40,288 nucleotides of DNA, from positions 1-40,288 of the IMG/VR virus record IMGVR_UViG_3300044972_000036. The stretch is one strand, 5' to 3'. This stretch comes from a virus. The notes below the pieces were generated by a model that saw nothing but the letters and a program-made list of their open reading frames with translations, was not told the DNA's origin and did not search any database. Positions 5,700 through 37,465 of the stretch are shown here, piece after piece (within the stretch, counting starts at the first letter, position 1; the number at the start of each line of letters is the position of its first letter). A program made the translations under genes and the position numbers.

Positions 5700-5722
5700 A
5701 GCCCCGCTTCGGCGGGGCTTTT
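5700..5722 (+). terminator. Intrinsic terminator with UUCG tetraloop
   Basis: AGCCCCGC, loop TTCG, GCGGGGCT make a perfect eight-base stem followed by TTTT (5719-5722). It would end tube protein transcripts. The flanks CATGAC (5671-5676) and GTCATG (5723-5728) are also complementary and could add an outer stem. Confidence 0.85.
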
Positions 5723-5730
5723 GTCATGCG

Positions 5731-5739
5731 TGATATAAT
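5731..5739 (+). promoter_or_regulatory. Extended -10 promoter for chaperone genes
   Basis: TGATATAAT directly after the terminator, no -35. The 14 bases TGATATAATTTACA recur exactly at 32234-32247. Transcription would start around 5746, about 26 bases before the start codon, with AGAAAGGG as ribosome binding site. Confidence 0.6.
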
Positions 5740-6510: not shown

Positions 6511-9500
6511 ATGGCAGATGTAAATGCAATCATTAATATAGACATAAATTCGTCTTCTGCGTTAGTAAATCTTAAAAGACTTGAATCGCAGATAGACCAG
6601 TTTAATAGGTCTGTATCAACAAGCAATGCAACGGCTGCCGCATCACAACAAAGTCTAAATAGAGCACTTCTTGATGGCATAAACAATACTGGATTATTTA
6701 CTTCAAAAATTGTTCCAGTCGAATCATCAATGACAAGATTTTCAAGATCTTTAGACGAGGGTCGCCTATCTCTTGGAGAATACTCAAGACATGCTGCATC
6801 TCAAATGCCGGGGCTAAGCAGGCTATTCAAGAGAGAATTTGATTCTATTGAGCAAGTTGCTACATCTAGAGTTAAATCAATGCAAACTCAATACATTGCC
6901 CTTGGAAAAACGGTAGATGGAGTTACAAAAGCAATTGCTTCAACTCCAACAGGACTAGGAAGAGGACTGGCTACAGATTTAGCAATGACTCAACAACGTC
7001 AACAAATATTTAATAAATTGCTTGATGATGGTTCGACAAAACTTTTGAACTGGGGAAAGAACACTCAGTGGGCTGGTCGTCAGTTGATGGTTGGATTTAG
7101 CCTTCCTCTTGCTGCATTTGGCGCTGCGGCTGCTAAGACATTCATGGAAATTGATAAAGCAACTATTTCACTTAAAAGAGTGTATGGAGATTTAAGTACA
7201 ACTAAGGGAGAGTTGGATGCAAACGTTGAATCAGTAAAGGTTCTTGGGCAAGAGTACACCAAATACGGCATAACACTAGCAGAAACAATTAGTTTGAGTG
7301 CTCGTGCTGCTGCTACTGGAGCAACCAATGAAAGTTTAATGGCTGCAACAGAGCAGACTTTGAGGTTTGCAACACTTGGTCAAATGGATTACAATGAAGC
7401 ACTTGATACAACAATTTCTCTTCAAACTGCCTTTGCAATTTCCAATGAAGATCTTGGAACAACTGTAGATTACCTTAACGCTGTGGAAAACCAAACAATT
7501 CTTACAATGGAAGACATGTCTGTTGCTATTCCAAGAGTTGCCACGGTAGTCAAGGGACTTGGAGGTAATGTACAAGATTTAGCAATCATGATGACAGCAA
7601 TGCGTGAAGGTGGAGTAAGCGCAGAGAATGCTGCAAACGGTTTGAAGTCAGGTCTTGCGTCTTTGATTAATCCAACAAAAAGGGCATCTGAAAGTTTGGC
7701 TTCTATGGGTGTCAACCTTAACGCCATTATTACTCAAAATAAGGGCGACCTTATGGGAATCATTACTGAATTTGGTACAGCAATTAATAAACTAGATGAG
7801 TTTAGTCGTCAACAGGTTCTTGAACAAGTTTTCGGTAAATACCAGTATGCAAGAATGAGCGCACTGTTCACTAACATTACAAAAGATGCGGGACAAGCAG
7901 CAAGAGCAATGGACATTGCTGGAATGTCAGCAGCAGATCTTGCTAAGATTTCTGAGAAAGAACTTGGACAAATATCTGAATCTACTTCTGTAAAGTTTCA
8001 AGCATCAATGGAAAAACTTAAGATGTCCATTGCCCCTATTGGAGAAGCATTCTTAAAGGGAATCACCCCAATAATTGATATGGTTTCAAAAGTTGCCGAT
8101 GCATTCAACAATCTTCCAGATGGAGTAAAGAATGCAATGGCAGTTATTACGGGGGTGGTTGCAGGATTAGGTCCAGTACTTCTTATGACCATTGGTTTGT
8201 TAGGTAACGGTATAGCAAACATAACAAAGTTTATCCAATTTATTAGAAAAAGTTTGGCTGGTATCAAGGGTGACGCATCAGCATTTACTTATTTAGCACA
8301 AGGAGAACTTGAAGCAGTAACAGCAAGCAAGGCACTTGAAGGAAGTTCTGTTAGCCTTACAGATAAGTTACTTCTTCAAAGAGGAGCGGTTTCTGGCCTT
8401 ACCGCAGAATATGAAAGATTTGCTCGTGCCGCAGGAATTGCTAGAGCCGAAATGGGATCAATGGGTGGTGCTCCTGCGCCTATCGGTGGAGGCAGAGCAC
8501 CAGTACCAACCCCAAGAATACGCAGAAACACAGGTGGAACAATTCCAGGTGTTGGAAGTACAGACACAGTTCCAGCAATGTTAACACCGGGAGAATTTGT
8601 AATCAACAAAAAATCAACTGCTAGAAATCTTCCATTGCTTCATGCAATCAATGATGGACAGGCGGTTGGGGGCTTTAATAAAGGTGGACAGATTCCAGGA
8701 GTACAGTATTTTGGAGGTAGGATACAGCCTGGAGGACAAGTTGAAAGAATTAGAGAAAAACTAAAAGGTGCCGCTGAATATCTTCCTCCACTACCTAAGG
8801 CTAAAGGTCCAAGTACCTTTTTGCATTTGATAAAAGAACAAGGACAAGGCGGCGAGGCTCCAGATATCATTCGTGCGCTTGCAACGGCTTTAGGTGTTAC
8901 TCCAAGAAGAATGTCAAAAGTAGGAATTGACATTATTTCTGGAAAAGACATAAACAGTAGGTTGAATGTTGCTGAATTAGGAGGTACACCGAGTGGAGGA
9001 CATGTAACAAAGAAACAATTTCTTGAGGCTATTACGGCTACTCAGGCTAGCAACAAAGATCCATTTAGAAAAATAAAGAAACTAGATCCTAACATTGGTC
9101 AAGCAATTGAAGATGATTTAATAGCGTGGTTAAAAAATAATCCTACGGAAGAATTAAACGACTCCATGATCAGTGATGTGGTTACGGGAACAATAAACAA
9201 TTCAAAGATAACAGAAGAAGCGAGGACACGATTCTTATCTACAGGAGGGTACAGGCTTTCTAGGGGGATTGGTTTTAGTAAAATTAATGAGGCTCTAGGT
9301 CGTGGAACAATAAAAAGGGCTTGGAAAGAAGGAAAAAGACATGTTGCAGTTGAACTTGAAGATGGAACAATAGTTTCTTATGAAACAAGAAATATTAGCA
9401 CTTCTGAAGGAGTAAATCAAACTGGTGGAAAAAATTATAGAGAGTTTGATAATGAAGCCTCATATGGAGAATGGGCAAGGGCTCAAGGCAGAGAGATTGA

Positions 9501-12500
9501 GCCATTAGAATTCAGGGAACCCTTAAGACGTAATCGTGGTGGACAAATTCCAAGGTTTAATCGTGGTGGAAGATTCCTTGGAATGCCACAAAAGTTTAAC
9601 ACTAAACTAGAAAAAGAATTACAGGAATCAACACGACTAGCACAAAGTGGTCCAGGTAGTCAATTACCACTATCAGAATTTGCAACACTAGAACAAGGTA
9701 TTGGTGGATATAGTGCTGCGTTCCCTGGATTAAATGGAATATATGTAGATGCAGCGGGAAGAAAAGTAGTATACAAGTCTCATCCTAATTTTGAATCAGC
9801 AGAAGCAGAAATGCTTAGCGGAAGATTGATGAGTTCTTTATTTGGACTAGAGTCTCCAAGCCAAGTAGTAGTAAAGAGAAAGCATCCTATTACTGGAGAT
9901 ACTGTATTTGGCGTTGAATCAGAATTTGATAAGACGTTTGCAATAAGCGAAACAGTAGAGGCGGGGAGTGGAAGACAATTTACCCCTTCAGAAGCCGCTC
10001 GTCAATTTATTGCAAGTGGAATAAGAAGAGATAGAGATCTACAACCCGCAAATATTCGCGGCAATATTGTAGTGGATCAAGGTGTTGCGGTTACTGGAGT
10101 AAATGATAAGGGTGAACCACGAGCCATGGCTCAGGGTAGAGTCACAACAACTGATCCAAGATCAGTTACCGAACAATTACAAGTCAATGCCATAATGGGG
10201 AAGGGTGGAGCCAAGAAGTTTCTTGCAGAAAATCTTGCAGATATTGCAAGATCAGTAGGCCCAGAAGAATTTGAAAGATTAATGGTTTCCGCTGTTTCAG
10301 AAGCAAGGGCTAAATTAAGTACATCTATTGATAACCTTCCAACATCAGAATCAACAAAAAACATGTACAGATCCATTCTTACAAAAGACTTTGATGAGTT
10401 ACAAGCAACATCATGGAGATCATACTATGATCACTTAGAATCTTTTACAGTACCAGTTCCAAAACAACCAACTGAGGCTGCATTAAAGAAATTAGAATTA
10501 GCAAGACAAGAGTCTAAAAGGTCAAAAGCATCAATAGACATGGCTGAACACAATATCGTTTCAAGCAGGCTGGGTCTTCCTACTGCGTGGGCAAGAGGGG
10601 TATTCAGGAACACTGGGGGGCCAATCTTTGAATCACAGACTAAGATAGTTCCTGGAGTTGGAAGTACTGATACTGTTCCTGCAATGTTGACTCCTGGAGA
10701 GTTTGTAATCAATAAGCAAGCGACCAGAGAAAATCTTCCACTACTTCATGCTATCAATAATGGTGAAGTTCTTAATAGAAACAAGGGTGGACAAATTCCC
10801 GGTATGCAATATTTTGCAACACCAAACCCTCAAAGAATGGTTCAAAGCCAAAATGAATTAAATTATTCAACAACAACATCAATGCGTGCAGGACTTCCGT
10901 TACCAATTGCTGGAAGAAAGCAATTAGTGTTGGTGGATCTTGATGGAACAATAATAGGAAATCCAGGTGGAACCCTATCTAAGTTAAACCCAGAAGACTT
11001 TACTCCAATTGAAAAAAACATAGGAAGAATCAGGGAACTTAGAAATCAAGGAATTGATATAGAGTTTGTTACTGCAAGACCTCCTGAAATGGAAGAACTT
11101 ACAAGAGAAACATTAAAGCGTTTAGGCTTAGATGATATCCCTGTTACGTTTAATGACATGGAGCAGCAGGGCAAGAGAGATCCAAGTAAGATGGTGAGAA
11201 TGTCTGCACCACAGTATAAACTTGAGGTTGCTAAGAGAAGGATGAGAGATGGGTATGATGTATCTCTATTAGATGATGATGAAAAAAATAGAATGATGAT
11301 GCAACAAAGTGGCATCTATTCGTTCTTTAATAAAGGTGGACAAATTCCCGGTATGCAATATTTTGCAACACCTAGACCACAAAGAGTAGTACAAAAGCCA
11401 GAAATACGATCAGTAAAGGATGAACCATTCATACTGGACCCAGCATTATTTGGTCCAATGGGTAGTAGGTATCAAGGTTTTGAAGAAAGAACACTATCTA
11501 GTGGATTGAGAATATTAAGAAACCTTAAGGGCGATGGATCAACTGTTATGCTACAGATGGGTAAATATCATCCATTCCATGTAGGACATGAAAAATTATT
11601 AAATCAAGGTATTATAGCCGCACGCGAAGCCGGATCAGATTTTGTTCTTGGTGCAAGCGGATCATATGGAAGTCAATCAAACAACCCATTAAGCCCTAGA
11701 TTAAAGAAAAAACTTATTGAAGAGGCAACTGGAATAAGTCCAAATATGGTAGGAGTTACTTCATCTGGTAAAAAGTTGGACGACCTTCTTGCTGATTTGC
11801 TTAGCGAGGAGGGCGGGTATTCAAAATTTATGCCAGCCATTGGTTCGGATAAAATTATTAAACGTCCTGACTCAGATAAAACTAGCGATCCATATAGTGG
11901 TGCAGCAAGTCGGGCCGGATTTGAAATAGTTGAAGGATTTACATTGCCAAGAGATGCATCAACTGAAGTGTCTAACTCTTCTGGAACACTTCTTAGGGAA
12001 TTGGCAATGTCTGGAAATCTTGAAGAATTTGCTAAATTGATGCCTGCCTCAGTATCAAGAAAAACAATAGAAGAAGCATATTATGCAATAAGAAACTATA
12101 AAACCTTCCTAAAAAGAAGTGAACCAATTCCAGAAGAATTCAATGTACGAGGATATGCTTTAGGTGGACCAGTTACTCCAATGCTAGCGGCGGCAGCATC
12201 AAATCTATCTCGTTTAGGATTTAACAGACTTGGTGCTGAAGAAAGATTGATCTTACAGTCTCAACAACAAGCATCACCATTAGGTATGCAATTGTTTAGA
12301 GGCGTAAACGCAGCGGCAGACTTAGTTCCAGAAGAAATTAGGCAGTTGGCATTGTCTGGAAATGTTACTGATTTTTCTCAATTAATTGGAAGAGAAATTG
12401 CTACTCCTAGAGGATCTTGGAGTTCAGCACTTAATCCAGCAGCAACAATGCTTGGAGAAAATTCAACTGCAAGAAGGCTTAAAGAATTATCTTCAATGAT

Positions 12501-15500
12501 ATTCCCAAGATCACAAAGGTCAAGTAAAAGAACTGCAAGAGAAATACTTGATCGTGAAAGAGCACTTGGAGACAATAGTCCACAAATAAAGGCGGCAAAG
12601 AAAAAATTAGACTTAGCAATAAAAGAAGGAGAGTCTTCATCCTATATATCATCACTAGAGGCTGAATATGAAAAAGCAAAACAAGCCCAAAGACTAAGGG
12701 TTCAATCATTAGAACAAGCAGTACCAGAATATGAAAACCTTATGCGTTCTGGTGCATCAAGTTCAATGATATTTGACCTAACAAATGTTGGTCCAAGTTC
12801 TGGAATAGGACAAGGACAATCCTTAATAAATGGAATCACTGTAGATAAAGATGGAGTTTATAGGGTAAGTCTTCATTCATCTGGCTTTGATACCGTCCCC
12901 ATTTCAGATATCAGTTCATTTGGAGTACAAGAAAGAGGTATTGGTGGGGGTAATCAATTCAATGAACAAGAACACTTTATGTTTAACAAAGGTGGACAAA
13001 TTCCTGACGTTCAACACTTTGCTTTTGGTGGAATGGCTCAATCATTAAAAAATAAAATAGGAGATTTAAGAACTTATCTCAATTTAAGACATGGAGCAGC
13101 CCCAGGAGTTGAAAGAATCCCATTAGATCCATTGAGCCAATCTGCAAGGGATCAGCAAAGAAATGAAGATATCTATGGTCCAGGGATCTATCATTCAGAT
13201 AGATATGATACTCCTCAAACGTATGCAGGAATTCCTCGCCCAGACGGTTCTTATGTATACAAGGGATCTAGTGAACTTGGAAGAATGTATTCTGTAAGTG
13301 ATGTTCCTGGAACTATTTATAGAACTTCTAGAAACCCTAGGGCATTGCTTGATTTTGCCAAAGGAAAAGGATTTATTCATATAGACGATATACCAGATAT
13401 TTTTGGATCTCTTGAACAACAGAATCTAGAACTTAGAAAAATGGGGTATTCAGGAATAATAGTTCCAGATGTTGGAGCAAGAGGAGAAAGTTTTATAGTC
13501 GATCTCATATCAGGAACTCAATCATATAATGCATTAGCAAAAACTAATCCCGATAAACCTTTTAGAAAAAGTGAAATGGAAAGAATGAGGGCTGCAAGAG
13601 AAAAAGTTACTCAGAATAGAAACACTGGTGGACCAATATTTGAGTCACAAAGTAAAATAGTTCCAGGTGTTGGAAGCACTGATACTGTACCCGCAATGCT
13701 CACACCGGGGGAATTTGTAATAAACAAAGAAGCAACCCAATCAAATCTTTCTTTATTACATGCAATTAATGATGGTAATACTCCTCAATCAATGCAAGGG
13801 TTTAACAAGGGTGGGCAGATTCCGGGTATGCAGTATTTTGCAAATGGTGGGCTGCCACAGTCAGAACAAAGAAGATACAGCAGTCCAATTTCATTGATTG
13901 ATAACATAAACAGTCTTCCAGAAGGTTCACTCAAAGAAGAGATGAAACGTATGGCTGCAAGAGAAGCATACGCAGCAGAACAATCACATCAAACATCTAG
14001 AGGAAATTTTCCAAACCAAGTTGACTTTGCTCATAATGAGTCTGGTGGAGGAAAGAGTCGTAATGTAGAAGATTGGAAACTTGGAAGGTCAACTGATCCA
14101 GGAGGAAAAGGTCTTCCACAAGCACATCCTTCAAATCAAATGACTCAAGTATATAGAAGTTCTGAAAAAAACAGAGCCGTACTTGAAAAAACTCTAAAGC
14201 GTCAACAAGTAGATTCAAAAATTACTCAACGTATCTTGAAAGCAGCAGCAGAAGGGGCTGCCCAAGATGCAGCAGATCAGCGAATATTAGATGAAGCAAA
14301 TAAAGAAATTTTAAAAGGCATTAACGATAAAACAATAAAAAGCACTGAAATCTCAAACAAATTTGCAAAAACTCTTGAAGCAGACATAAAAGCACAAGTG
14401 GCTAGAGATGAATGGACTAGAAGTTATAACGCGGCTGGAGATGCAGAAAAGAAAAGAATGGTTCAACAAGGTTTGGATCAAGTAAGAGAACAGGGTAATA
14501 GACAAGTTTCAGAACAAAGACAACAGGCAAAGTCAGATTCTCAAAAACTTCCCAGGACTAAAATTCCAAAAGAAACAGTAGATAGAATAAAAACCGAATC
14601 AGAAAAAGAAGCAAGAAAAATTGTTAGAGAAGAAGTATCTAAAACATTTAAAGCACAAGGTGGAACTTATGAAACAACAAGGCTTGCAGGACCGCTTGCC
14701 ACACGTTATGGAATAGAACCAGTTGAAGTTAATGTTGCAAAAGATAATGCCAAATATATAAAAAATAGACAAGAGGCTGAAGCAAAAAGATTAAGAACTG
14801 TAGCATTTGAAGAAGAAAACAATAAATTAGAAAAAATAAGAAAACAACAACAATCTAAAGGAGGTGCAGCAAAAGCAAAAGACATAGCAATAGAAAGAGA
14901 TAGGTTGATAAAAAATGATGGACTTGATTACAAATCTGCAACTGCGGCAGCAAAAGAAAATCTTAAAAATCCTATTATTATTCCTGTAGAAGAACCAGCA
15001 CCCGAAAGAACACCTAGAAAAGCAGGATTCTTCAGGAGTGGAATAGATGCTGAAGGAAATAAACTTCCTTCTAGAATGCAAAAAATGACACCAGGAGTTC
15101 ATCAAGCAAGCATGGGTCTTGGTGGTGGATTGATGATGGCATCAATGGCTCCAATGATGATGCAAGACGAACAAGGTAAGTTCATGGGAATGGACCCAAA
15201 CATGGCAATGATGGGTGCTATGGGTGCAGGCACTGTAGTGTCAATGCTTCCAATGCTTGGTCCAGCAGCACCTGCTGTTGCGGGGGTACTAGCAGCAATT
15301 GCAGCAGTAACTATTGGTCTTAAAGTATGGAGAGGTAATGTTGACGGTGCTGCAAAGAAAACAGCAGAACTTGGTGCAAATATGGGTGGTACAGCAAATT
15401 CATTAAACAACATGTCAAAAATGTTGGGTGTTTCTACCCCCGCGCAAAGAAGAGCAGCAATAAAACTTGGAGTTGGAAAAGAAGAATCAGCACAAATAAA

Positions 15501-18500
15501 TGAAAAAATTGCTCCAATACTTCAGAGTGAACAAGGTCAGAAGTTTATGAAAGAGTTAAAAGATTCAACCTCTGCTGATAGATTTTCAAAATTATCAGAT
15601 TACTTAAGAAATGGAATTGCCGCTGGAATACTAGACTCACAAACAGCATCCTTATTTGCAAAAGCCGTTGGATCAGAATTAAATGATGCTGTTCTTGGTA
15701 TGACTGTTATTCAGTCTTTACGAGGACAAACTAAAGGGTCAAAGGGGTTGTTGGAAATTGCACAACGTAGAGAATCAGCAACAAATGTGTTAATTTCTGG
15801 AACTGGTAGAATAGATCAGCAAAGTCTTTCAAGAGAACAGTTAACTGGTATTACTGGTGGTGGCGGTGTAAAAACTGGCGCAAGAATCCCATCAATGACT
15901 CCACAATTAGAAGGTAAAAACACAGTTCAAACAGATTCAGACTATAAAAAACTTATAGGCGCTTCCATTCAAGTTATTCAAGATTTTTCAAATGTAACGG
16001 CTTTAGCGTCAGAAGAATATCAAAACGGAACAATTAAATTTAAAGAGTATATTGATATAGTTAATACTTCTAGAGAGGCACAAGTAAAATATACTCAATC
16101 CTTAACTGACGCAATGGAAAAGGGATCTGATTTTGGTTCAAGTATGCAGGCTTGGAGCGATCAACTTACTCTTGCTGGAATTGGTACTGAAGAACAGGAT
16201 ATTTTAAGAAGAGCAGCAACTAATACTGATACAGAGTTTGGTTCTTCAATTATAGAGTCAACGTTAAAAAACCCTATTGCCATGCCTGGAACAAGTTTTA
16301 TAGGGGATCGCTGGGCAGCATTGCAAGAGCAATCACTGACGGGTCAACTTGATTGGGGAACTGGTATTAATGCACTTATGTCAGGTGATGTACAAAGGGT
16401 TGATGAGCAAAAACTTTCAGAAATAACTGCGGCTATTTTAGACAATCAAGTTTCTGTAGCAGATGCATCAGCAATATTAGCAGAAATAGCAGCAAATCCA
16501 GAAGGTCTTGTAGCGCAAGCATATGACACTAATAAGAGCACTGGTCAAAGTGCTTCAGCCGCAGCATTCGCTATGAATCTTGAAAAAAATGGTGGAGTAG
16601 TTCCAGGATTAAATCAAGCACAAACACTTGAATATACAAAAACTGCTGCAAGATATGTAAAAGAAAGTGGAGGACAATATAAAGATATTGAATCTTATAT
16701 GGCATCAATTCCAGACATATCTGTTGGATTTCCAAGTCAAATAAATCTTCAACAACGTGGATTTCGCGCAGGAGTTTCAGAAATAACACAAACACCAAGA
16801 GTTTTTAAATCTCAAAGAGAAATTGCATTAGGTCAATTAAAAGGATTAAGTGGTGAACAACTTGCAGCAACTGTTACATCTTTACCTAGACTTCAAGCAA
16901 GTTTAGGTCAAGTTGCTGGATCAAAATTTCAAACATCTGATATATATCAGAAAGCATTAGGAGCCATGGGCGACACTTATACTACTGGTGGTGGAATAAC
17001 TAAAGGTGATGAAGGAAAAACACTACAGAGTGTATTAAAAGCAAATGAAGGTGCTAACCAAGTTTTTGGAGAAAAAACTAATTTAATGACAATTAAAGCA
17101 CAAACAGATATTAATGGAAAGCCAGTTGATCCACAAGACTATGTTAGAGTTTTAGGAGAATGGACGAATCAGGCAAAAGTCATACAGGAAAATATTCCAC
17201 CAGAAGTAATAAAAGCATTACATATTGATATGACAAGTCCAGAAGATTTAGAAAAGTATGCCAAACTTGCCGAAACAGTGGGTAGAAATTGGAAATTCTT
17301 AGATGGATTAAATCCAAATATAAACAAGATGTCCGTATTTGAAGCAACAATGGTGGATAAGGACGGGAACATAATAACAGATCCAATGAAAATTGTTAAA
17401 AATGTTACAGCAGTAAATGAAGCCTTTAAGAAATTAGGAAATAAAAATAGTAAGGTAAGAAAAGAAGCAATAGTTTCATTGGCAACATCGTATGCTGGAA
17501 AAGATGGAAGTCCAGAAGAAATTAAAAAAGGTTTAGCAGAATTAAGAAAACAGTATGCAGATTTTGATAAATTAGATCCAATTGTTCAAAATCAAATGCT
17601 TGAATTAAAATTTAACTTTAATGTTGATGGTGAAGATCAAATGCTAAAGTTAGCACAATTAAGAGAAAAATTAAAAGATCCAAATATAAGTTTAAGAAGT
17701 GCAAAACTTATTCATGATCAAATAAAAATAATAGAAAAAGAACAAGCCGCATCTATAGAACAAGCATATCAAGGTGGAAAAGATATGGGTGATGCAGGTG
17801 GTGGTGGTGGATCGAATCCATTATTAGACTTTAAAAAATCTTTAATGGAACAAATAAGACTTTATGCAGACTTAAGTATGACACTTAAGAAACTATTCTC
17901 TTCAAAGATGTCTTTCCTTAAATTACTCGGAAGTAATAAGGGTGTTGATGATCAACTTCGTGCCGCTGGATTAGGGGAGGCTGCTACTCAAGCAGTGATG
18001 TCAATGGGTGCTGACGCAGCAAAGAAATGGATCAAGGCAAATATTTCTGGCGGCAAACTCAAGGAATCAGGAAAGAAGCAAGAAGAAGCCCTTCTTGCTG
18101 GAGCAATGTCTCAAAGACAAAGCGAGGCAGTCGGAGCAATTAAAACTGCAAATATTCAACAGCAAGCATCAACATTACTAGCAAGTGGTAAGTATGGCAA
18201 GGCAGGGATTGAAACAACGTCTGCAATACTAGGAGATCCACTACAATCAGAAGGATTTGTAAAAGCAGCAAAAGAATATGACATTGTTCAAAAAAAGGTA
18301 AAGCAAGCAGAGAAAAAGGGCAAGAGTCTTCCTAGTGAACTAGAAAAAGAATGGAAGAATGCTCAAAAGACAATGCTTGGTTATGTAAATAAACAAGACA
18401 AAGCATTTTCAAAAACCAACATACAAGAGCAATTAAGGGCAGCACAAGAAGCAGCCGCTCAGCAAGGTATTATGATGAGCGTAAAGAAATCATTAAGTGC

Positions 18501-20238
18501 TTCTGGGACTTCAAGAGAAGTAATGGATGCAATTAGCAGTGACTACGGAAAGTCAAAAGCGTTATATGAACTTGATGAGGCAATTGCAAAGGGTAAGGAT
18601 GCAAAAGGCAAGGGAGCCAAGGCACTGCGAGAAGCGGGTAGACAGGCTGCAAAAGATAAAGCAAAACTATTAGCAGATACTCAAGCATCATTACCAGACA
18701 CGACACTTGAAAAGAATATTGCTGATCTTCAAATGGCTCAACAGGAAATAAACAGGCCACTTCAAAAGCAGATAGACCTTTATCAAGAACAGATCAACCT
18801 TATAAACAAAGAAATAGAAGCACTTCAAAGACTTAATGATTCTGATCAAAATAGAATTAGAACTCTTACTAGAGAAAAAGAAATGCTTGAGCGTCAAGTT
18901 GAAGTTATTAATCGAAAGAATGAAAAGGATCAACTAAGCATAAACAGTCTTCAACGTGAAGATGAAATGAGAACTCGTGTTGCAGACGCACTAAATCATG
19001 AACTATCTATTATGTCTGAAAAAGAAACAAAGATTCGTGAGGCATACGATAAGAGAATTAAGGCTCTTGATGAGGTTGCAAAGATTAATGATTATATTAT
19101 TAATCAACAGAAGAGTCAACTTGGATTAGCAGATGCATTGAGCCGTGGAGATATTTCAGCAGCAGTATCTGTTCAACAAGACATGCAAGCAGGAAATGCT
19201 CAATTTGCTACAGAACAAATGCGTACTGGCCTTCAAACTGGGGTAGATAATCAGATTGAAGGGCTAACAACTTCTGGTGGACTGACAAGGGTACAAGCAG
19301 AAGATCAAATTCGTGCAATAGGTCAACAAACTTATCAAACATCCTTACTTGTTAGAGACTTACAAGATGCAATCTATGCGAGAAATCTTGAAATTGCAGC
19401 AATAAAGATTCAACAAAGGGATGTTGATGATAGTATTCTTAAGATTCAAGATGATATCTACGCCAGAGAGTCATTAATTATTGGAATTCAAAGAGATAGA
19501 ATTCAGCCACTTCAAGATCAAATAACAAAGATTCAAGATGCAAAAGATCTTCAAGACAAAAACATTCAGAATCAAATTGATGGTTATCAATTACAGATTG
19601 ATCAAAGAGATATGGCTCAGGAACAGGCTGATAAGGTAAAGGGTCTTGCTATACAGTGGGGTAGTGTAGGTGATGCAATTGCAGCAGCAAATAAATTAGC
19701 AAATAATGCTAAATTAGAGGCATCAAGTTGGAAGCCGACTGATCTTCTACCTGATGCAACTGATGAAGAAAAAAGACTACAAAAAGAAAAAATGGATAAA
19801 TGGAAAACAAAAAATGATGAAATTGAAGCAGAAAGATTATCTACTATTGCAGCATTAAAGGCTAATGGGGTGGTTGCAAAGTTTGCTACTGGTGGAATAG
19901 TGGGTATGGGTGGAAGAGATTCAGTACCATCTATGTTAACTCCTGGAGAATTTGTAATGCGTAAAGCATCTGTTCAAAAGTATGGTACAGCAATGTTTGA
20001 AAGAATGAATATGGGTGCATTCGATATGCCAAGGTACAACGTTCAAGGACCACAGGAACAAAGCAAGGCATCAAACACGAGTAACACAAGCATTAACGCT
20101 CCAGTGTATAATACTTATAGTGTCAACGTCAACGTTCCAAATACCAATGCTGATCCAGATGTTATTGCCAATAAGGTTATGATGAGAATGACACAAATAG
20201 ATAACTCAAACATAAGGAGTCTCCGTGGCAACAAGTAA
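6511..20238 (+). CDS. Giant tape measure protein with internal enzyme-like cassettes
   Basis: One uninterrupted 4575-codon frame; the AAGGTG site precedes ATG 6511. Residues about 170-500 are a clear TP901-type core: GKNTQWAGRQLMVGFSLPLA, the ARAAATG segment, then MREGGVSAENAANGLKSGL and LEQVFGKYQYARMSALFTNI. A hydrophobic stretch follows (about 542-585). Residues about 670-2450 differ completely: globular, enzyme-like cassettes divided by Gly-rich repeats (listed separately). After that come a Lys/Glu coiled-coil region (2450-2860), a Met/Gly-rich hydrophobic segment (about 2869-2942), long helical and Thr/Gln-rich parts, a strong coiled coil (about 4064-4377) and a C-terminal copy of the TPGEFV motif. 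At about 0.15 nm per residue the whole chain would specify roughly 690 nm, or about 420 nm if the cassette block is not counted. The stop overlaps the next gene by 14 bases. Confidence 0.95.
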   Translation: MADVNAIINIDINSSSALVNLKRLESQIDQFNRSVSTSNATAAASQQSLNRALLDGINNTGLFTSKIVPVESSMTRFSRSLDEGRLSLGEYSRHAASQMPGLSRLFKREFDSIEQVATSRVKSMQTQYIALGKTVDGVTKAIASTPTGLGRGLATDLAMTQQRQQIFNKLLDDGSTKLLNWGKNTQWAGRQLMVGFSLPLAAFGAAAAKTFMEIDKATISLKRVYGDLSTTKGELDANVESVKVLGQEYTKYGITLAETISLSARAAATGATNESLMAATEQTLRFATLGQMDYNEALDTTISLQTAFAISNEDLGTTVDYLNAVENQTILTMEDMSVAIPRVATVVKGLGGNVQDLAIMMTAMREGGVSAENAANGLKSGLASLINPTKRASESLASMGVNLNAIITQNKGDLMGIITEFGTAINKLDEFSRQQVLEQVFGKYQYARMSALFTNITKDAGQAARAMDIAGMSAADLAKISEKELGQISESTSVKFQASMEKLKMSIAPIGEAFLKGITPIIDMVSKVADAFNNLPDGVKNAMAVITGVVAGLGPVLLMTIGLLGNGIANITKFIQFIRKSLAGIKGDASAFTYLAQGELEAVTASKALEGSSVSLTDKLLLQRGAVSGLTAEYERFARAAGIARAEMGSMGGAPAPIGGGRAPVPTPRIRRNTGGTIPGVGSTDTVPAMLTPGEFVINKKSTARNLPLLHAINDGQAVGGFNKGGQIPGVQYFGGRIQPGGQVERIREKLKGAAEYLPPLPKAKGPSTFLHLIKEQGQGGEAPDIIRALATALGVTPRRMSKVGIDIISGKDINSRLNVAELGGTPSGGHVTKKQFLEAITATQASNKDPFRKIKKLDPNIGQAIEDDLIAWLKNNPTEELNDSMISDVVTGTINNSKITEEARTRFLSTGGYRLSRGIGFSKINEALGRGTIKRAWKEGKRHVAVELEDGTIVSYETRNISTSEGVNQTGGKNYREFDNEASYGEWARAQGREIEPLEFREPLRRNRGGQIPRFNRGGRFLGMPQKFNTKLEKELQESTRLAQSGPGSQLPLSEFATLEQGIGGYSAAFPGLNGIYVDAAGRKVVYKSHPNFESAEAEMLSGRLMSSLFGLESPSQVVVKRKHPITGDTVFGVESEFDKTFAISETVEAGSGRQFTPSEAARQFIASGIRRDRDLQPANIRGNIVVDQGVAVTGVNDKGEPRAMAQGRVTTTDPRSVTEQLQVNAIMGKGGAKKFLAENLADIARSVGPEEFERLMVSAVSEARAKLSTSIDNLPTSESTKNMYRSILTKDFDELQATSWRSYYDHLESFTVPVPKQPTEAALKKLELARQESKRSKASIDMAEHNIVSSRLGLPTAWARGVFRNTGGPIFESQTKIVPGVGSTDTVPAMLTPGEFVINKQATRENLPLLHAINNGEVLNRNKGGQIPGMQYFATPNPQRMVQSQNELNYSTTTSMRAGLPLPIAGRKQLVLVDLDGTIIGNPGGTLSKLNPEDFTPIEKNIGRIRELRNQGIDIEFVTARPPEMEELTRETLKRLGLDDIPVTFNDMEQQGKRDPSKMVRMSAPQYKLEVAKRRMRDGYDVSLLDDDEKNRMMMQQSGIYSFFNKGGQIPGMQYFATPRPQRVVQKPEIRSVKDEPFILDPALFGPMGSRYQGFEERTLSSGLRILRNLKGDGSTVMLQMGKYHPFHVGHEKLLNQGIIAAREAGSDFVLGASGSYGSQSNNPLSPRLKKKLIEEATGISPNMVGVTSSGKKLDDLLADLLSEEGGYSKFMPAIGSDKIIKRPDSDKTSDPYSGAASRAGFEIVEGFTLPRDASTEVSNSSGTLLRELAMSGNLEEFAKLMPASVSRKTIEEAYYAIRNYKTFLKRSEPIPEEFNVRGYALGGPVTPMLAAAASNLSRLGFNRLGAEERLILQSQQQASPLGMQLFRGVNAAADLVPEEIRQLALSGNVTDFSQLIGREIATPRGSWSSALNPAATMLGENSTARRLKELSSMIFPRSQRSSKRTAREILDRERALGDNSPQIKAAKKKLDLAIKEGESSSYISSLEAEYEKAKQAQRLRVQSLEQAVPEYENLMRSGASSSMIFDLTNVGPSSGIGQGQSLINGITVDKDGVYRVSLHSSGFDTVPISDISSFGVQERGIGGGNQFNEQEHFMFNKGGQIPDVQHFAFGGMAQSLKNKIGDLRTYLNLRHGAAPGVERIPLDPLSQSARDQQRNEDIYGPGIYHSDRYDTPQTYAGIPRPDGSYVYKGSSELGRMYSVSDVPGTIYRTSRNPRALLDFAKGKGFIHIDDIPDIFGSLEQQNLELRKMGYSGIIVPDVGARGESFIVDLISGTQSYNALAKTNPDKPFRKSEMERMRAAREKVTQNRNTGGPIFESQSKIVPGVGSTDTVPAMLTPGEFVINKEATQSNLSLLHAINDGNTPQSMQGFNKGGQIPGMQYFANGGLPQSEQRRYSSPISLIDNINSLPEGSLKEEMKRMAAREAYAAEQSHQTSRGNFPNQVDFAHNESGGGKSRNVEDWKLGRSTDPGGKGLPQAHPSNQMTQVYRSSEKNRAVLEKTLKRQQVDSKITQRILKAAAEGAAQDAADQRILDEANKEILKGINDKTIKSTEISNKFAKTLEADIKAQVARDEWTRSYNAAGDAEKKRMVQQGLDQVREQGNRQVSEQRQQAKSDSQKLPRTKIPKETVDRIKTESEKEARKIVREEVSKTFKAQGGTYETTRLAGPLATRYGIEPVEVNVAKDNAKYIKNRQEAEAKRLRTVAFEEENNKLEKIRKQQQSKGGAAKAKDIAIERDRLIKNDGLDYKSATAAAKENLKNPIIIPVEEPAPERTPRKAGFFRSGIDAEGNKLPSRMQKMTPGVHQASMGLGGGLMMASMAPMMMQDEQGKFMGMDPNMAMMGAMGAGTVVSMLPMLGPAAPAVAGVLAAIAAVTIGLKVWRGNVDGAAKKTAELGANMGGTANSLNNMSKMLGVSTPAQRRAAIKLGVGKEESAQINEKIAPILQSEQGQKFMKELKDSTSADRFSKLSDYLRNGIAAGILDSQTASLFAKAVGSELNDAVLGMTVIQSLRGQTKGSKGLLEIAQRRESATNVLISGTGRIDQQSLSREQLTGITGGGGVKTGARIPSMTPQLEGKNTVQTDSDYKKLIGASIQVIQDFSNVTALASEEYQNGTIKFKEYIDIVNTSREAQVKYTQSLTDAMEKGSDFGSSMQAWSDQLTLAGIGTEEQDILRRAATNTDTEFGSSIIESTLKNPIAMPGTSFIGDRWAALQEQSLTGQLDWGTGINALMSGDVQRVDEQKLSEITAAILDNQVSVADASAILAEIAANPEGLVAQAYDTNKSTGQSASAAAFAMNLEKNGGVVPGLNQAQTLEYTKTAARYVKESGGQYKDIESYMASIPDISVGFPSQINLQQRGFRAGVSEITQTPRVFKSQREIALGQLKGLSGEQLAATVTSLPRLQASLGQVAGSKFQTSDIYQKALGAMGDTYTTGGGITKGDEGKTLQSVLKANEGANQVFGEKTNLMTIKAQTDINGKPVDPQDYVRVLGEWTNQAKVIQENIPPEVIKALHIDMTSPEDLEKYAKLAETVGRNWKFLDGLNPNINKMSVFEATMVDKDGNIITDPMKIVKNVTAVNEAFKKLGNKNSKVRKEAIVSLATSYAGKDGSPEEIKKGLAELRKQYADFDKLDPIVQNQMLELKFNFNVDGEDQMLKLAQLREKLKDPNISLRSAKLIHDQIKIIEKEQAASIEQAYQGGKDMGDAGGGGGSNPLLDFKKSLMEQIRLYADLSMTLKKLFSSKMSFLKLLGSNKGVDDQLRAAGLGEAATQAVMSMGADAAKKWIKANISGGKLKESGKKQEEALLAGAMSQRQSEAVGAIKTANIQQQASTLLASGKYGKAGIETTSAILGDPLQSEGFVKAAKEYDIVQKKVKQAEKKGKSLPSELEKEWKNAQKTMLGYVNKQDKAFSKTNIQEQLRAAQEAAAQQGIMMSVKKSLSASGTSREVMDAISSDYGKSKALYELDEAIAKGKDAKGKGAKALREAGRQAAKDKAKLLADTQASLPDTTLEKNIADLQMAQQEINRPLQKQIDLYQEQINLINKEIEALQRLNDSDQNRIRTLTREKEMLERQVEVINRKNEKDQLSINSLQREDEMRTRVADALNHELSIMSEKETKIREAYDKRIKALDEVAKINDYIINQQKSQLGLADALSRGDISAAVSVQQDMQAGNAQFATEQMRTGLQTGVDNQIEGLTTSGGLTRVQAEDQIRAIGQQTYQTSLLVRDLQDAIYARNLEIAAIKIQQRDVDDSILKIQDDIYARESLIIGIQRDRIQPLQDQITKIQDAKDLQDKNIQNQIDGYQLQIDQRDMAQEQADKVKGLAIQWGSVGDAIAAANKLANNAKLEASSWKPTDLLPDATDEEKRLQKEKMDKWKTKNDEIEAERLSTIAALKANGVVAKFATGGIVGMGGRDSVPSMLTPGEFVMRKASVQKYGTAMFERMNMGAFDMPRYNVQGPQEQSKASNTSNTSINAPVYNTYSVNVNVPNTNADPDVIANKVMMRMTQIDNSNIRSLRGNK
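8527..8718 (+). repeat. Tape measure linker repeat, full copy 1
   Basis: Residues 673-736. It reads NTGG, then PGVGSTDTVPAMLTPGEFVI, a short helix with LPLLHAIN, and FNKGGQIPGVQYF. The TPGEFVIN motif is common in tape measure proteins; three full copies inside one protein are not. Confidence 0.9.
8730..9525 (+). other. Cassette 1: unrecognised domain in the tape measure
   Basis: Residues about 740-1005. Helical first part (DIIRALATALGVTPRRM), a region with AIEDDLIAWLKNNPTEEL, and a small beta part near KRHVAVELEDGTIVSYE that looks SH3-like. I see no catalytic motif. Its boundaries are set by linker repeats on both sides, so it is probably a separate folding unit. Confidence 0.4.
9532..9570 (+). 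repeat. Tape measure linker repeat, short copy
   Basis: Residues 1008-1020, NRGGQIPRFNRGG, the short form of the linker between cassettes 1 and 2. Confidence 0.75.
9661..10470 (+). other. Cassette 2: HipA/PI-kinase-like fold in the tape measure
   Basis: Residues about 1051-1320. GIYVDAAGRKVVYK places a Lys (K1089) on a strand as in the kinase N-lobe. A helix with an EAEMLSGRLMSSLFG pattern follows, like the acidic C-helix of HipA-type kinases, then SPSQVVV. The later segment RRDRDLQPANIRGNIVV (D1174, N1185) resembles the catalytic DxxxxN loop. The expected metal-binding Asp is not evident (TGVND instead), so activity is uncertain. Confidence 0.5.
10609..10818 (+). repeat. Tape measure linker repeat, full copy 2
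   Basis: Residues 1367-1436: NTGGPIFESQTKIV, the STDTVPAMLTPGEFVIN block, LPLLHAIN and NKGGQIPGMQYFA. Nearly the same protein sequence as copies 1 and 3 although the codons differ in many third positions. Confidence 0.9.
10918..11322 (+). other. Cassette 3: HAD-family phosphatase-like domain in the tape measure
   Basis: Residues about 1470-1604. All main HAD motifs can be read: motif I VDLDGTI (D1476, D1478), motif II FVTARP (T1521, R1523), a Lys-rich helix with a possible motif III Lys, and motif IV LLDDDEKNR (D1588-D1590). At about 135 residues it is a minimal HAD core without a large cap, like polynucleotide 3'-phosphatase or phage HAD domains. Intact acidic residues suggest it could be active; the substrate is unknown. 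Confidence 0.75.
11326..11370 (+). repeat. Tape measure linker repeat, short copy
   Basis: Residues 1606-1620, FNKGGQIPGMQYFAT, without the TPGEFVIN part. It separates the HAD and nucleotidyltransferase cassettes and matches the tail of copies 2 and 3. Confidence 0.85.
11530..12115 (+). other. Cassette 4: HxGH nucleotidyltransferase-like domain in the tape measure
   Basis: Residues about 1674-1868. MGKYHPFHVGHEKLL contains the HxGH signature (H1690, H1693) of the cytidylyl/adenylyltransferase superfamily, in the form seen in NMN adenylyltransferases. NPLSPRLKKKLIEEA matches the following 'NPL..R' element, GSDK a middle motif, and SSGTLLREL (S1823-R1829) corresponds to the ISSTxxR motif; the helices after it (GNLEEFAKLMP) also fit. 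Substrate cannot be told: nicotinamide mononucleotide, pantetheine phosphate or sugar/alcohol phosphates are all possible. Confidence 0.75.
12199..12981 (+). other. Cassette 5: R-S-E class ADP-ribosyltransferase-like domain in the tape measure
   Basis: Residues about 1897-2157. LFRGVN (R1930), then GSWSSAL (S1969-S1972), then MIFDLTN and QFNEQEHFMF with E2152 and E2154 follow the Arg / Ser-x-Ser / Glu-x-Glu order of VIP2/C3-type mono-ADP-ribosyltransferases. Between the second and third motif lies a Lys/Glu-rich helical insert of about 90 residues (about 1990-2080). Modification target unknown; motif spacing longer than usual because of the insert. Confidence 0.6.
12982..13032 (+). repeat. 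Tape measure linker repeat, short copy
   Basis: Residues 2158-2174, FNKGGQIPDVQHFAFGG. It directly follows the Glu-x-Glu motif of cassette 5 and precedes cassette 6. Confidence 0.8.
13063..13545 (+). other. Cassette 6: PARP/ART-PolyVal-like ADP-ribosyltransferase domain in the tape measure
   Basis: Residues about 2185-2345. LRHGAA (H2194) fits the first-strand His, YGPGIYHSD (Y2227) the 'GxGxY' motif with a following helix DTPQTYAG, and GYSGIIVPD with GESFIVDL (E2326) the last strands and catalytic Glu. This H-Y-E arrangement is that of PARP-like ARTs, including the ART domain of phage polyvalent proteins. It is clearly different from cassette 5. Confidence 0.6.
13621..13851 (+). repeat. Tape measure linker repeat, full copy 3
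   Basis: Residues 2371-2447: NTGGPIFESQSKIV, the STDTVPAMLTPGEFVIN block, LSLLHAIN and FNKGGQIPGMQYFANGG. It closes the cassette block; helical tape measure sequence follows. Confidence 0.9.
19882..20028 (+). repeat. Tape measure C-terminal TPGEFV motif (diverged copy)
   Basis: Residues 4458-4506: FATGGIVGMGGRDSVPSMLT, PGEFVMRK, then a helix with GTAMFERMNMG. This is the usual C-terminal place of the motif in tape measure proteins, and may be the ancestor of the internal copies. Confidence 0.8.
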
Positions 20239-33453: not shown

Positions 33454-34125
33454 ATGAGTATTTTGAGAGGTTTGAAGGCTATGGAACAACTTGATCGCTC
33501 TCCTGCAAATTCAGGAGATGGAACTAAGGTTCGTTGGGTTAAGTTGGAAGACAGTCAAAGCGTAAAGGTTCGATTTGTTAATGAACTTGATGAGGATTCA
33601 CCAAACTACGATGCAGCACGAGATCTTGCAATTGTAGTATCTGAGCACACCAACCCAAAGGATTACAAGCGTAAGGCTGTCTGCACTATGGATAGTGAAG
33701 GTCGTTGCTTTGGGTGTGAGATGGCTAGGAAGCAGACTGAGGCTGATCGTAAGCAGGGTTCGTGGCGTGCTCGTTTTCGCTACTACACCAATCTGCTTGT
33801 AGACGACGGCATGGAAGAGCCATACGTTGCTGTTTGGTCACAGGGCGTAGGCAAGCAGTCTGCATTTAATACTCTCAAGGAGTATGCTATTGATACTGGA
33901 AGTATCAGCAATAGGTCTTGGCGAATGAAGCGTCAGGGTAGTGGAACTGACACTAGTTATATTATTCTTCCTGGAGATCCAGACAACGAGAAGTATGACT
34001 GGAGCAAGGTTGAGCCATTTAATCTTGAGAAGGTTGTTCGTCAGGTTCCATATGCAGAGCAGGAGTCGTTCTATTTGGGATTTGATACTCCAACATCCAG
34101 CGACACAAAAAATGTTGACTGGTAA
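33454..34125 (+). CDS. Single-stranded DNA-binding protein-like
   Basis: A 223-residue protein with AAGGAG (33439-33444) before ATG. The core resembles phage SSBs with a small zinc-like knuckle: H65, C77, C85 and C88 (VCTMDSEGRCFGCEMA). Strands include VKVRFVNELDED and RARFRYYTNLLVDDG, and aromatic and basic residues are frequent, as for ssDNA binding. The C-terminus is acidic/polar and ends in DTKNVDW, like SSB tails that recruit partners. Position between primase and polymerase fits. The fold relation to T4 gp32 is by analogy. Confidence 0.65.
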   Translation: MSILRGLKAMEQLDRSPANSGDGTKVRWVKLEDSQSVKVRFVNELDEDSPNYDAARDLAIVVSEHTNPKDYKRKAVCTMDSEGRCFGCEMARKQTEADRKQGSWRARFRYYTNLLVDDGMEEPYVAVWSQGVGKQSAFNTLKEYAIDTGSISNRSWRMKRQGSGTDTSYIILPGDPDNEKYDWSKVEPFNLEKVVRQVPYAEQESFYLGFDTPTSSDTKNVDW

Positions 34126-34154
34126 TTGACAAACAGAGAAGGGGACGGTAGAAT
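34126..34154 (+). promoter_or_regulatory. Sigma70-type promoter inside a terminator
   Basis: TTGACA (34126-34131, perfect -35), a 17-base spacer and TAGAAT (34149-34154). The -35 begins right at the SSB stop codon. The -10 lies in the left arm of the terminator hairpin, so the new RNA begins after that arm (about 34161) and cannot form the hairpin. Confidence 0.75.
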
Positions 34155-34175
34155 AAAACTATCGTCCCCTTTTTC
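34141..34175 (+). terminator. Intrinsic terminator after the SSB gene
   Basis: GGGGACGGTAG (34141-34151), an eight-base loop, and CTATCGTCCCC (34160-34170) form an eleven-base stem with one G-U pair, followed by TTTTT. It would end transcripts arriving from the SSB gene. The DNA polymerase gene then depends on the promoter embedded here. Confidence 0.85.
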
Positions 34176-34195
34176 ATTTCTATTAAAGGAGTTTT

Positions 34196-37100
34196 ATGCA
34201 TAACTACGTCCCCCTTCACCTACACACACATTACTCTCAAATGGACGGAGTTGCAACACCAGAAGAATATGTAGAGCGAGCACAGCAGAATGGCATGTCT
34301 GCAATCGCTATCACTGATCATGGAACGCTCTCTGGTCATCGACCAATGTATCGTGCGGCTAAGGCGGGTGGCCTTAAGCCTATCCTTGGAGTAGAAGGAT
34401 ACATTACGGCAGATAGATTTGATAAGCGTGACAAGAAAGAACGAACTCTTCCCCTTGACATGGTATACAACCATATAGTAATTCTTGCTAAGAATGATAT
34501 TGGTCTTGAGAACCTTGGTCGTCTTAATGAGATTTCTTGGAACGAGGGGTACTACCGTAAGCCTCGTATTGACTTTGAGGTTCTGGAGAAGTATCGTGAG
34601 GGGCTTATTGTTTCCTCTGCCTGCATGTCTGGCCTTATCAATAAGGCTATTGAGGTAGACGACTATGCTGTAGCAAAGGCGCACCTAAAGTGGTTTGGAG
34701 ATCGCTTTGGCGATGATTTCTATGTTGAGGTTATGCCACACAATACTGCTGGTATGAATCGGGCATTGATTGATCTTGCTGATGCCTGCGGTCATAAGAT
34801 TATTGTAACTCCAGATTGCCATCATGCGACGGTAGACCAGAAGGTAATTCAAGAGATCATGCTTATTAACAACACTCATGCTAAGTTTGAGAAGGATATA
34901 TCCTACGACAAGTCTCGTAAGGTAGAAGACCCTCTTAAGCGTCTCGACTATCTGTATGGACAAGATCGAATGATGAGTTTTAATAAGTTTGATATTCATC
35001 TTCTTTCTGGTGATGAGATGCATGAGTCAATGGGTGAAGACTCTCGCGCAGACATGTTTGCTAATACTTTGGACATTGCCGACAAGGTGGAAGAGTATAC
35101 GATTCATCGTAACCTAAACCTTCTTCCTGTTGAGCACAAAGATCCTGATGCACAGATCAGAAAGTATGCATTTTCTTGGCTAAAGGCCAACAACTTGGAT
35201 ACTAATCAAGAGTATGTAGATAGGCTCAATGAAGAACTTGAGACTATCAAGCAGAAGAAGTTTGCCTCTTACTTCATTGTTGTCCAGAATATGCTTAATT
35301 GGGCAAAGAAGGAAGGTATCATGGTTGGTCCCGGTCGTGGATCGTCTGCTGGATCACTAGTCTGCTATGCATTGGGCATCACAGATATTGATCCTATTAA
35401 GCATGGACTTCTGTTCTTCCGATTCATTGACATGGATCGTGATGATATGCCAGACGTTGACTCCGATATCCAAGATTCTCGCCGTGAAGAGGTAAAGGAT
35501 TATCTAGAGAAGCAGTATAAGCATGTTGCATCCATTGCAACATTCCTACAGTTTAAGGATAAGGGCGTTGTTAGAGACGTGGCTCGTTGCTTCAATGTTC
35601 CTCTTGCTGATGTAAATCGTGCGCTAAAGACAGTGGATACTTGGGAAGAGTATGTGATGTCTAAGAATACTCAGTGGTTCCGTGAAAAGTATCCTGAGGT
35701 AGAACTGTATGGAAATCAACTGCGTGGTCGCATTCGTGGCACTGGAGTCCATGCAGCAGGCGTTGTTACGTCCAAGATTCCAATCTCTAGGGTCGCCCCA
35801 ATGGAAACTCGTAACGTCACAGGAAGCGATTCTAGACTCCCTGTGGTCGCGGTAGACATGGAAGAGGCAGCAGACATTGGTTTGATCAAGATCGACGCTC
35901 TGGGGCTTAAGACTCTTACGGTTATGAATGATGCTCTCAATATTATTGAGGATCGAACTGGAAGAAGAATTGTTCTAAAGGATATAAATCTTGAGGATTC
36001 TAATATTTATAACATGCTGTCTGATGGGCATACTAAGGGAGTCTTCCAATGTGAAGCAACACCATACACAAACCTACTAATTAAGATGGGCATTAGTAAG
36101 TTTAATGAACTTGTTGCATCTAACGCCCTTGTACGCCCTGGTGCTATGAATACTATTGGCAAGGATTATATTGCTCGCAAGCAGGGTAAGCAGGGTATCG
36201 TTTACGCATCCCCAATCATGAAGGAGTTTACTGAAGACACTTACGGTACAATTCTATATCAGGAACAAGTTATGCTTGCTTGCACAAAGTTGGGCGGCAT
36301 GACTATGGGAGAGGCCAATAAGGTTCGTAAGATTATTGGTAAGAAGAAGGATGCGAGAGAGTTTGACGAGTTCAAGGAGTTATTTGTTCGGAATGCAACT
36401 GGGCCACTTGGCGGGGCGGCTGCTGAAAAGATGTGGCATGACTTTGAAGCACACGCAGGATACTCGTTCAATAAGTCTCATGCTGTCGCTTACTCAACAA
36501 TTTCGTATTGGACGGCGTGGCTGAAGTATTACTATCCGCTTGAGTTCATGTTCTCTCTTCTTAGTAATGAGAAGGACAAGGACGGTCGTACTGAGTATCT
36601 GATTGAGGCAAAGCGCATGGGCATTCCTATGCGTCTGCCACATATTAATGACTCTGGATCTGACTTCAAGATTGAGGGTAAGGGGATCAGGTTTGGTCTT
36701 TCTTCCATTAAGTACATCTCAGACAAGATTGCATCCAAGTATCTTGAAGCACGTCCATTTAAATCATTTGAAGATGTAAAGGAATTTACATACACAAAGG
36801 GTAATGGGGTTAACTCACGAGCACTTGAGTCAATGAGGGCAGTTGGAGCATTGACATTTCCAGACAACCCTAGGAATGACGAAGAGATTCGTAGCAACAT
36901 GTATGAATACCTAAATCTTCCAGAGTTTAATATGCAGGTTCCACAGCACTACCATGCTTATGTAACCTCTGCTGATGACTTTGATGAGAAGGGCGCATTC
37001 ATCCTTATGGGTGTTGTTCGTGGTATTAAGCGTGGTAAGGGATGGAGCCGTGTAGATATTCTAGACGGTACAGGATCAATTGGAGTATTTGATGAAGAAC

Positions 37101-37465
37101 AAACTACTATCGAAGCAGGTAGGACTTACATTATTCTTGTTGGATCTAACAGAATTGTGGAAGCAGTTCCTATTGACGAGATATCAACGAGCAAGTCACC
37201 GCTTATCAGGTTCTTAAACTATAAGCAACTGCCATACAGCGATGACGAATATTATGTATTATCGTTTAAGTCAAGGATTACCAAGGCAGGTAAGAGGATG
37301 GCCAGCCTAGTAGTTGCCAACTCAGGTAGAGATCTCCTATCAATGATTGTATTTCCAACTGCATTCGCGGTTGCATACACAAGGATAGAAGAAGGTAATA
37401 TTTATAAGATTAACTACAGTCTCTCAAAGGATGAGGACTTAATATTTCAGGAGGTAGTTGCATGA
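34196..37465 (+). CDS. dnaE: DNA polymerase III alpha subunit (C family)
   Basis: A 1089-residue C-family polymerase; AAAGGAG before ATG 34196. The N-terminal PHP domain looks intact: HLHTHYSQMDG (residues 8-18), AITDHGTLSGH, GVEGY and TPDCHHA near 204-210, so it may keep a metal-dependent nuclease or phosphoesterase function. Palm motifs: GPGRGSSAGSLVCYALGITD (about 380-399) and MPDVDSDIQ with D420, D422, D424, the catalytic aspartates. Later come tHhH-like and beta-binding parts, and an OB domain (about 940-1030, FILMGVVRGIKRGKGWSRV). Length is near E. coli DnaE (1160). It would replicate phage DNA together with the helicase, primase and SSB genes here. Confidence 0.92.
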   Translation: MHNYVPLHLHTHYSQMDGVATPEEYVERAQQNGMSAIAITDHGTLSGHRPMYRAAKAGGLKPILGVEGYITADRFDKRDKKERTLPLDMVYNHIVILAKNDIGLENLGRLNEISWNEGYYRKPRIDFEVLEKYREGLIVSSACMSGLINKAIEVDDYAVAKAHLKWFGDRFGDDFYVEVMPHNTAGMNRALIDLADACGHKIIVTPDCHHATVDQKVIQEIMLINNTHAKFEKDISYDKSRKVEDPLKRLDYLYGQDRMMSFNKFDIHLLSGDEMHESMGEDSRADMFANTLDIADKVEEYTIHRNLNLLPVEHKDPDAQIRKYAFSWLKANNLDTNQEYVDRLNEELETIKQKKFASYFIVVQNMLNWAKKEGIMVGPGRGSSAGSLVCYALGITDIDPIKHGLLFFRFIDMDRDDMPDVDSDIQDSRREEVKDYLEKQYKHVASIATFLQFKDKGVVRDVARCFNVPLADVNRALKTVDTWEEYVMSKNTQWFREKYPEVELYGNQLRGRIRGTGVHAAGVVTSKIPISRVAPMETRNVTGSDSRLPVVAVDMEEAADIGLIKIDALGLKTLTVMNDALNIIEDRTGRRIVLKDINLEDSNIYNMLSDGHTKGVFQCEATPYTNLLIKMGISKFNELVASNALVRPGAMNTIGKDYIARKQGKQGIVYASPIMKEFTEDTYGTILYQEQVMLACTKLGGMTMGEANKVRKIIGKKKDAREFDEFKELFVRNATGPLGGAAAEKMWHDFEAHAGYSFNKSHAVAYSTISYWTAWLKYYYPLEFMFSLLSNEKDKDGRTEYLIEAKRMGIPMRLPHINDSGSDFKIEGKGIRFGLSSIKYISDKIASKYLEARPFKSFEDVKEFTYTKGNGVNSRALESMRAVGALTFPDNPRNDEEIRSNMYEYLNLPEFNMQVPQHYHAYVTSADDFDEKGAFILMGVVRGIKRGKGWSRVDILDGTGSIGVFDEEQTTIEAGRTYIILVGSNRIVEAVPIDEISTSKSPLIRFLNYKQLPYSDDEYYVLSFKSRITKAGKRMASLVVANSGRDLLSMIVFPTAFAVAYTRIEEGNIYKINYSLSKDEDLIFQEVVA

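Follow-up and report, generated by a model that had tools for sequence, protein, structure and literature searches.

The 70-base gap between a gene for a single-stranded DNA-binding protein (ssb) and a gene for a DnaE-type DNA polymerase III alpha subunit (pol) holds both a promoter-like pair of hexamers and a strong terminator-type hairpin, with the -10 element at the hairpin's apex. We put the probability at roughly two in three that the two are fused into a single terminator-promoter, compact and probably leaky, by which transcription is reset between ssb and pol. The stretch of DNA analysed here, which we call the window, is a virus record of 40,288 bases with a GC content of 39%. Among annotated phages, its pol is nearest to that of Streptomyces phages such as Muntaha, with 65-68% DNA identity over part of the gene. 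Phages of the Muntaha type are Stanwilliamsviridae according to their records, and the host of the window virus may be an actinobacterium. Elsewhere in the window, one open reading frame spans positions 6511-20238 and encodes 4575 residues. Its product is probably a tape measure protein, in which case the tail would be very long.

Anatomy of the ssb/pol gap

Table 1. Features in and around the ssb/pol gap, in window coordinates.
Feature	Position	Strand	Basis
Upstream gene, ssDNA-binding protein (ssb)	33454-34125	+	PHROG 9721, E 1.6e-42
-35 hexamer TTGACA, immediately 3' of the ssb stop codon	34126-34131	+	Invariant in nine aligned nested copies
Hairpin left arm	34136-34151 (G/C-rich core 34141-34151)	+	Folding; compensatory changes
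-10 hexamer TAGAAT	34149-34154	+	T1, A2, A4 and T6 invariant in nine aligned nested copies
Apical loop, 7 nt	34152-34158	+	Folding
Hairpin right arm	34159-34174 (core 34159-34169; T5 run 34170-34174)	+	Folding
Predicted transcription start, A34161	34161 (range 34160-34162)	+	Inferred from spacing, 7 bases past the -10
Shine-Dalgarno AAAGGAG, outside the hairpin	34185-34191	+	Read from the sequence
Downstream gene, DnaE-type DNA polymerase III alpha (pol), ATG 34196	34196-37465	+	PHROG 405, E 8e-300

The candidate promoter has the hexamers of a sigma-70-type promoter and a spacer of 17 nucleotides, within the 16-18 expected of that class, and agrees with the consensus at 11 of 12 letters. It is one of the two best among the promoter-like sites between positions 24000 and 40288. 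That interval contains 34 such sites, against 44.9 in shuffled sequence; taken alone, the promoter match is no better than chance. The hairpin (34136-34174) has 16 pairs, a loop of 7 and a folding energy of -24.7 kcal/mol (z -5.9), and none of 200 shuffles was equally stable. It has the stable, G/C-rich form of an intrinsic (factor-independent) terminator and by far the longest stem among the seven terminator-like sites in the same interval. The U-tract after the stem is T5 in the window, reads TTCTC in near-identical relatives, and is T-poor or broken in several of the nested relatives described below.

The two signals share bases, because the TAG of the -10 pairs with a CTA in the right arm while the remaining -10 bases form part of the loop. 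The original prediction, that a promoter and a terminator-type hairpin coincide at 34126-34175, is borne out by coordinates, folding and shuffles. It also had the promoter overlapping the left arm, which is correct for the -10, through TAG only, but not for the -35, which lies 4 bases to the left of the hairpin. The geometry on which the prediction relied holds as well: given the predicted start near 34161, a transcript initiated at the nested promoter would be missing the left arm, and one arriving from upstream contains the whole hairpin. Sequestration of the ribosome-binding site, of the kind known from T4 gene e, was considered for this hairpin and rejected. Both the Shine-Dalgarno sequence and the ATG of pol lie outside it, so a role in hiding the ribosome-binding site can be set aside at this position.

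Two other strong intergenic hairpins in the window, at 1750-1794 and 5700-5739, are each followed 11-12 bases on by an extended -10, TGATATAAT. This extended -10 itself occurs at chance frequency (4 against 2.9 expected).

Boundary forms in relatives and a second nested locus

Searches with the polymerase and ssb proteins yielded 227 loci with an ssb 3' end, representing 117 distinct 90-base stretches. Among these, the nested form occurs at ssb/pol in six divergent groups: the window with L001-L004, L033 and L127; L006; L020/L021; L027; L034; and L133. In an alignment of nine nested copies, TTGACA and TA-A-T are invariant at a spacing of N17/18 while neighbouring letters vary. The stem is also maintained, with 97.2% of cells in the nested copies paired and both sides changed in 6 of 12 pairs (14 cells). 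No shuffle of 500 reached this value, and slid controls gave 0-1 double-changed pairs. The three stem pairs that contain -10 bases show no variation in rows with both sides aligned, which for the outer pair means 8 of 9 rows. These relatives lend support, at the level of aligned sequence, to the view that the site is a real bifunctional terminator-promoter element.

The nested form is one of several at this boundary. Among 93 labelled loci, 13 were nested, 17 had a hairpin, 5 were tandem (a hairpin followed by a separate TTGACA promoter), 16 had an insert in the hairpin loop, and 42 had none of these. These labels were used together with direct reading of the stretches after ssb; automatic classes missed tandem promoters with a CATAAT -10 as well as long-loop hairpins, such that loop-insert loci came out as 'none'. 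One locus (L023) was labelled hairpin despite a weak TTGACA downstream. Since neither hairpin nor promoter is found in 42 of the 93 labelled rows, the boundary appears to be dispensable. The five tandem rows (L119, L120, L126, L130 and L140) form a separate pol clade, and direct reading identified the tandem form also at L211, L220, L236, L237, L239, L243, L245 and L247. On a polymerase tree of 64 rows, which left out 29 of the 42 'none' rows and from which L055 and L131 were dropped as too short, the nested label needs five changes and the tandem label one. Together with the variant forms, these changes suggest that hairpin and promoter are separable parts that fused, and that nesting was gained or lost several times.

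Cultured phages show the same hairpin position. Of 136 records with an ssb relative, 14 were inspected, and in every one ssb is followed directly by a strong hairpin; in four of them (BoomerJR, Tomas, Coruscant and LukeCage) TTGACA and, 17-18 bases on, TA---T lie right behind the hairpin. At six loci (L005, L007, L008, L010, L019 and L024) the hairpin is followed by an inserted, different gene, with no visible promoter before pol, and at L036 by pol directly, again with no visible promoter. The hairpin is therefore unlikely to be an absolute stop at these seven loci, where read-through seems to be needed.

At L009, L014, L015, L017, L018, L022, L028-L031, L035, L037, L107, L122, L131, L135 and L141, the loop of the post-ssb hairpin is enlarged by an insert, very roughly 70-95 bases in length, in which a conserved core, CTTAGGATGGTTGTAGTTA, is flanked by paired sequence that varies. 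This core has exact matches in 12 contigs of the viral_contigs collection, all at the ssb-pol site. A gene inserted into the hairpin between ssb and pol (at loci such as L029) was considered and rejected, as the whole gap shows the loop insert with its conserved core. The insert is possibly an unknown structured RNA that controls ssb or pol. A search of Rfam returned no match at the gathering threshold for the window or the loop inserts (8 sources), and a single chance-level match (E 1.4) for L029. In a separate set of relatives, L134, L138 (3001-7298), L164 and L167 (3001-7301), the pol match extends over about 4.3 kb as against 3.3 kb, probably owing to an intein or intron.

A second nested locus, in the same phage group, lies 3' of a 50-residue gene of unknown function (L377:4227-4500, equivalent to G001 83427-83700), with further copies at L397 (around 9359, - strand) and L416-L461. 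The pattern TTGAC-N17/18-TA---T is present at 38 of 46 such loci, in 21 distinct sequences, and is nested in a hairpin in every case; the other eight loci are without the nested form. In most copies, a GTCA or GTTA that follows the right arm can pair with the TTGAC of the -35. The stem again covaries, with 33 cells double-changed over 6 pairs, where shuffles average 12 cells and none of 500 was as high.

Possible termination and alternative roles of the hairpin

Whether the hairpin would terminate was assessed with a terminator score, d, after a published formula. By this score, the window's copy reaches 36, L001 scores 11 and the other five nested copies score 5 to -13, giving a mean of 5.6 for seven nested copies against 31 for eight tandem relatives (range 15 to 47); six cultured phages range from 12 to 41. 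The score is zero or below in three of the seven nested copies and in one of two second-locus copies. The mean tail score is likewise 3.23 for nested against 4.27 for tandem copies. From these lower scores, nested copies look leakier than tandem ones, with the window's copy the best of the nested. The original prediction held that the element insulates pol from upstream transcription. This agrees with the good score of the window's own copy, but several nested relatives have poor U-tracts, pol in the relatives without a visible promoter seems to need read-through, and we treat insulation as a hypothesis drawn from sequence features.

The hairpin could instead protect the ssb messenger, as a 3'-end or processing/stability element such as an RNase stop or cleavage site, and cause little termination, while the nested promoter adds pol transcripts. 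The weak U-tracts of several nested copies would fit such a role, as would those relatives with a hairpin alone, where read-through appears to be required for transcription of pol, and the covariation demonstrates an RNA hairpin rather than termination as such. We nevertheless consider this reading unlikely, given the T5 and good score of the window's own copy and the ordinary terminator tails found at the same place in tandem relatives and cultured phages, several of them with a new promoter behind.

The same bases could also serve as DNA, either as an operator for a repressor or activator or as a cruciform that aids promoter melting, in which case the RNA form would be irrelevant. At both loci, the centre of the dyad falls within the expected transcription bubble, and both arms of the second locus conserve CCAC/GTGG and TTGAC/GTCA, as the binding site of a dimer would. 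Against this, the loop varies from 5 to 10 in length, the arms differ widely, and some second-locus copies carry a one-base bulge. The two kinds of mismatch also separate RNA from DNA, since a G-T pair holds only in the + strand RNA, and a DNA dyad predicts no asymmetry between G-T and A-C. Counted at symmetric positions, with both mismatch kinds penalised alike when the arms were found, G-T occurs at 34 positions and A-C at 5 across 19 copies from the two loci, although related copies among these are not independent. This excess argues for a + strand RNA hairpin formed by transcripts from ssb, and leaves a DNA palindrome or cruciform very unlikely.

The frequency of nesting was compared with chance in 10 related phage contigs, the window included, with sites of at least 10 of 12 consensus letters counted as promoter-like. 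The 284 such sites include 8 nested within a strong hairpin, 3 with the -35 in a hairpin loop and 5 just behind a hairpin. Twelve permuted motif pairs, with a mean of 114 sites each, gave 0, 0.08 and 0.83, respectively. Seven of the eight nested sites are at ssb/pol, those of the window and G001 being near copies of each other, and the eighth leads to the second locus. Promoter and hairpin thus occur together more often than chance allows. That the promoter-like motif is accidental and the hairpin an ordinary terminator is highly improbable: the unremarkable number of promoter-like sites around the window's copy and the many strong post-ssb hairpins without a promoter are what this would predict, but the hexamers and their spacing are kept in six divergent groups while adjacent letters change, permuted motifs were never nested, and the same design is found again at another locus.

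Scanning viral contigs for the pattern gave at least 81 sites, and at least 4 of them form strong nested hairpins where 0.16 would be expected. Among the matches listed, these four are on L027's own contig and at L273, L324 and L308. The last three are phages with no evident relation to the window, and in them the right arm reaches toward the next start codon. At L324:6300-6360 and L308:4224-4284 the right arm of the nested promoter's hairpin extends to the start codon of the next open reading frame, and at L273 (around 3185, - strand) it runs toward the next start. Sequestration of the ribosome-binding site as at T4 gene e would fit these three sites better than it fits the window. In G013, at 61071 (+) and 68512 (-) (locus L371 and the L370-L371 region), a strong hairpin holds TTGACA in its loop and fills the promoter spacer with its right arm, in what appears to be another way to fuse a terminator and a promoter.

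Proposed mechanism and known systems

In the fused terminator-promoter that we favour, RNA polymerase arriving from ssb would make the complete hairpin and would, for the most part, be released at the U-rich stretch behind it, leaving an ssb messenger that ends in this hairpin. A new messenger would begin near 34161, within the right arm, from a host sigma-70-type promoter with its -10 at the hairpin apex. Without the left arm, this messenger could not form the hairpin and would run into pol. About 14 bases would belong to both messengers, closing that of ssb and opening that of pol. Rather than acting as a complete barrier, a leaky stop combined with a restart may set a ratio, with much ssb and separately tuned pol. 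A broader hypothesis, which we regard as doubtful, is that such sites form a dedicated class of boundary element, kept at several boundaries of each genome, whether nested, tandem or with the -35 in the loop, in which polymerase released at the hairpin is handed to a promoter in the same 50 bases and hairpin, tail and promoter jointly tune the strength. With the promoter lying some 20 bases upstream of the point of release, such a relay would be an extreme form of restart at a nearby promoter.

If the fused element works as proposed, phage genomes can pack the end and the start of transcription units into the same bases and lose neither, and the ssb/pol boundary would be a natural setting in which to ask whether recycling of polymerase after termination matters in vivo. 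It would also be a warning for annotation, as both calls may be correct where a terminator and a promoter are called at one place. In the literature searched, which covered few subscription papers, no natural case of a promoter nested within an intrinsic terminator was found, which is no proof of absence. For LUZ100, the parts of the report drawn on here describe no nesting (PMC10134795).

The arrangement resembles the tandem boundary of BoomerJR, Tomas, Coruscant and LukeCage in that a stop after ssb is followed by a restart before pol. Unlike the tandem form of these Streptomyces phages, in which the signals stand in series, the signals of the window share the same 50 bases. In filamentous phages, the gene VIII terminator is next to, or overlaps, the gene III promoter. 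There too, terminator and promoter are close together in a compact phage genome.

After intrinsic termination, bacterial RNA polymerase often remains on the DNA, and it can initiate again at promoters close by (PMC6978380; PMC11347151). Such recycling would predict efficient restart at a promoter adjacent to a terminator. In the parts of these reports on which we draw, it was demonstrated in vitro with separate signals and no natural nested element is described (PMC6978380; PMC11347151), whereas here the signals are nested.

The closest geometry is that of T4. In the sections of the source used here, the T4 genes e, soc, 49 and I-TevI have a Shine-Dalgarno sequence or start codon within a messenger hairpin, and the late promoters of gene e coincide with the DNA that encodes the hairpin's 5' strand, such that late transcripts escape the hairpin (PMC3014915). 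As in gene e, the window has a promoter in the left arm, with transcripts from a predicted start that would lack the 5' arm while upstream transcripts form the hairpin. In gene e, as far as described there, a promoter of the T4 late type lies within a hairpin that masks the ribosome-binding site, whereas in the window the Shine-Dalgarno sequence is free, the promoter is sigma-70-like, and the proposed target is termination or the 3' end of the upstream messenger. Thus, the placement of a promoter within a hairpin is known from the translational control of T4 gene e, and its proposed use as a conserved terminator-promoter boundary is new.
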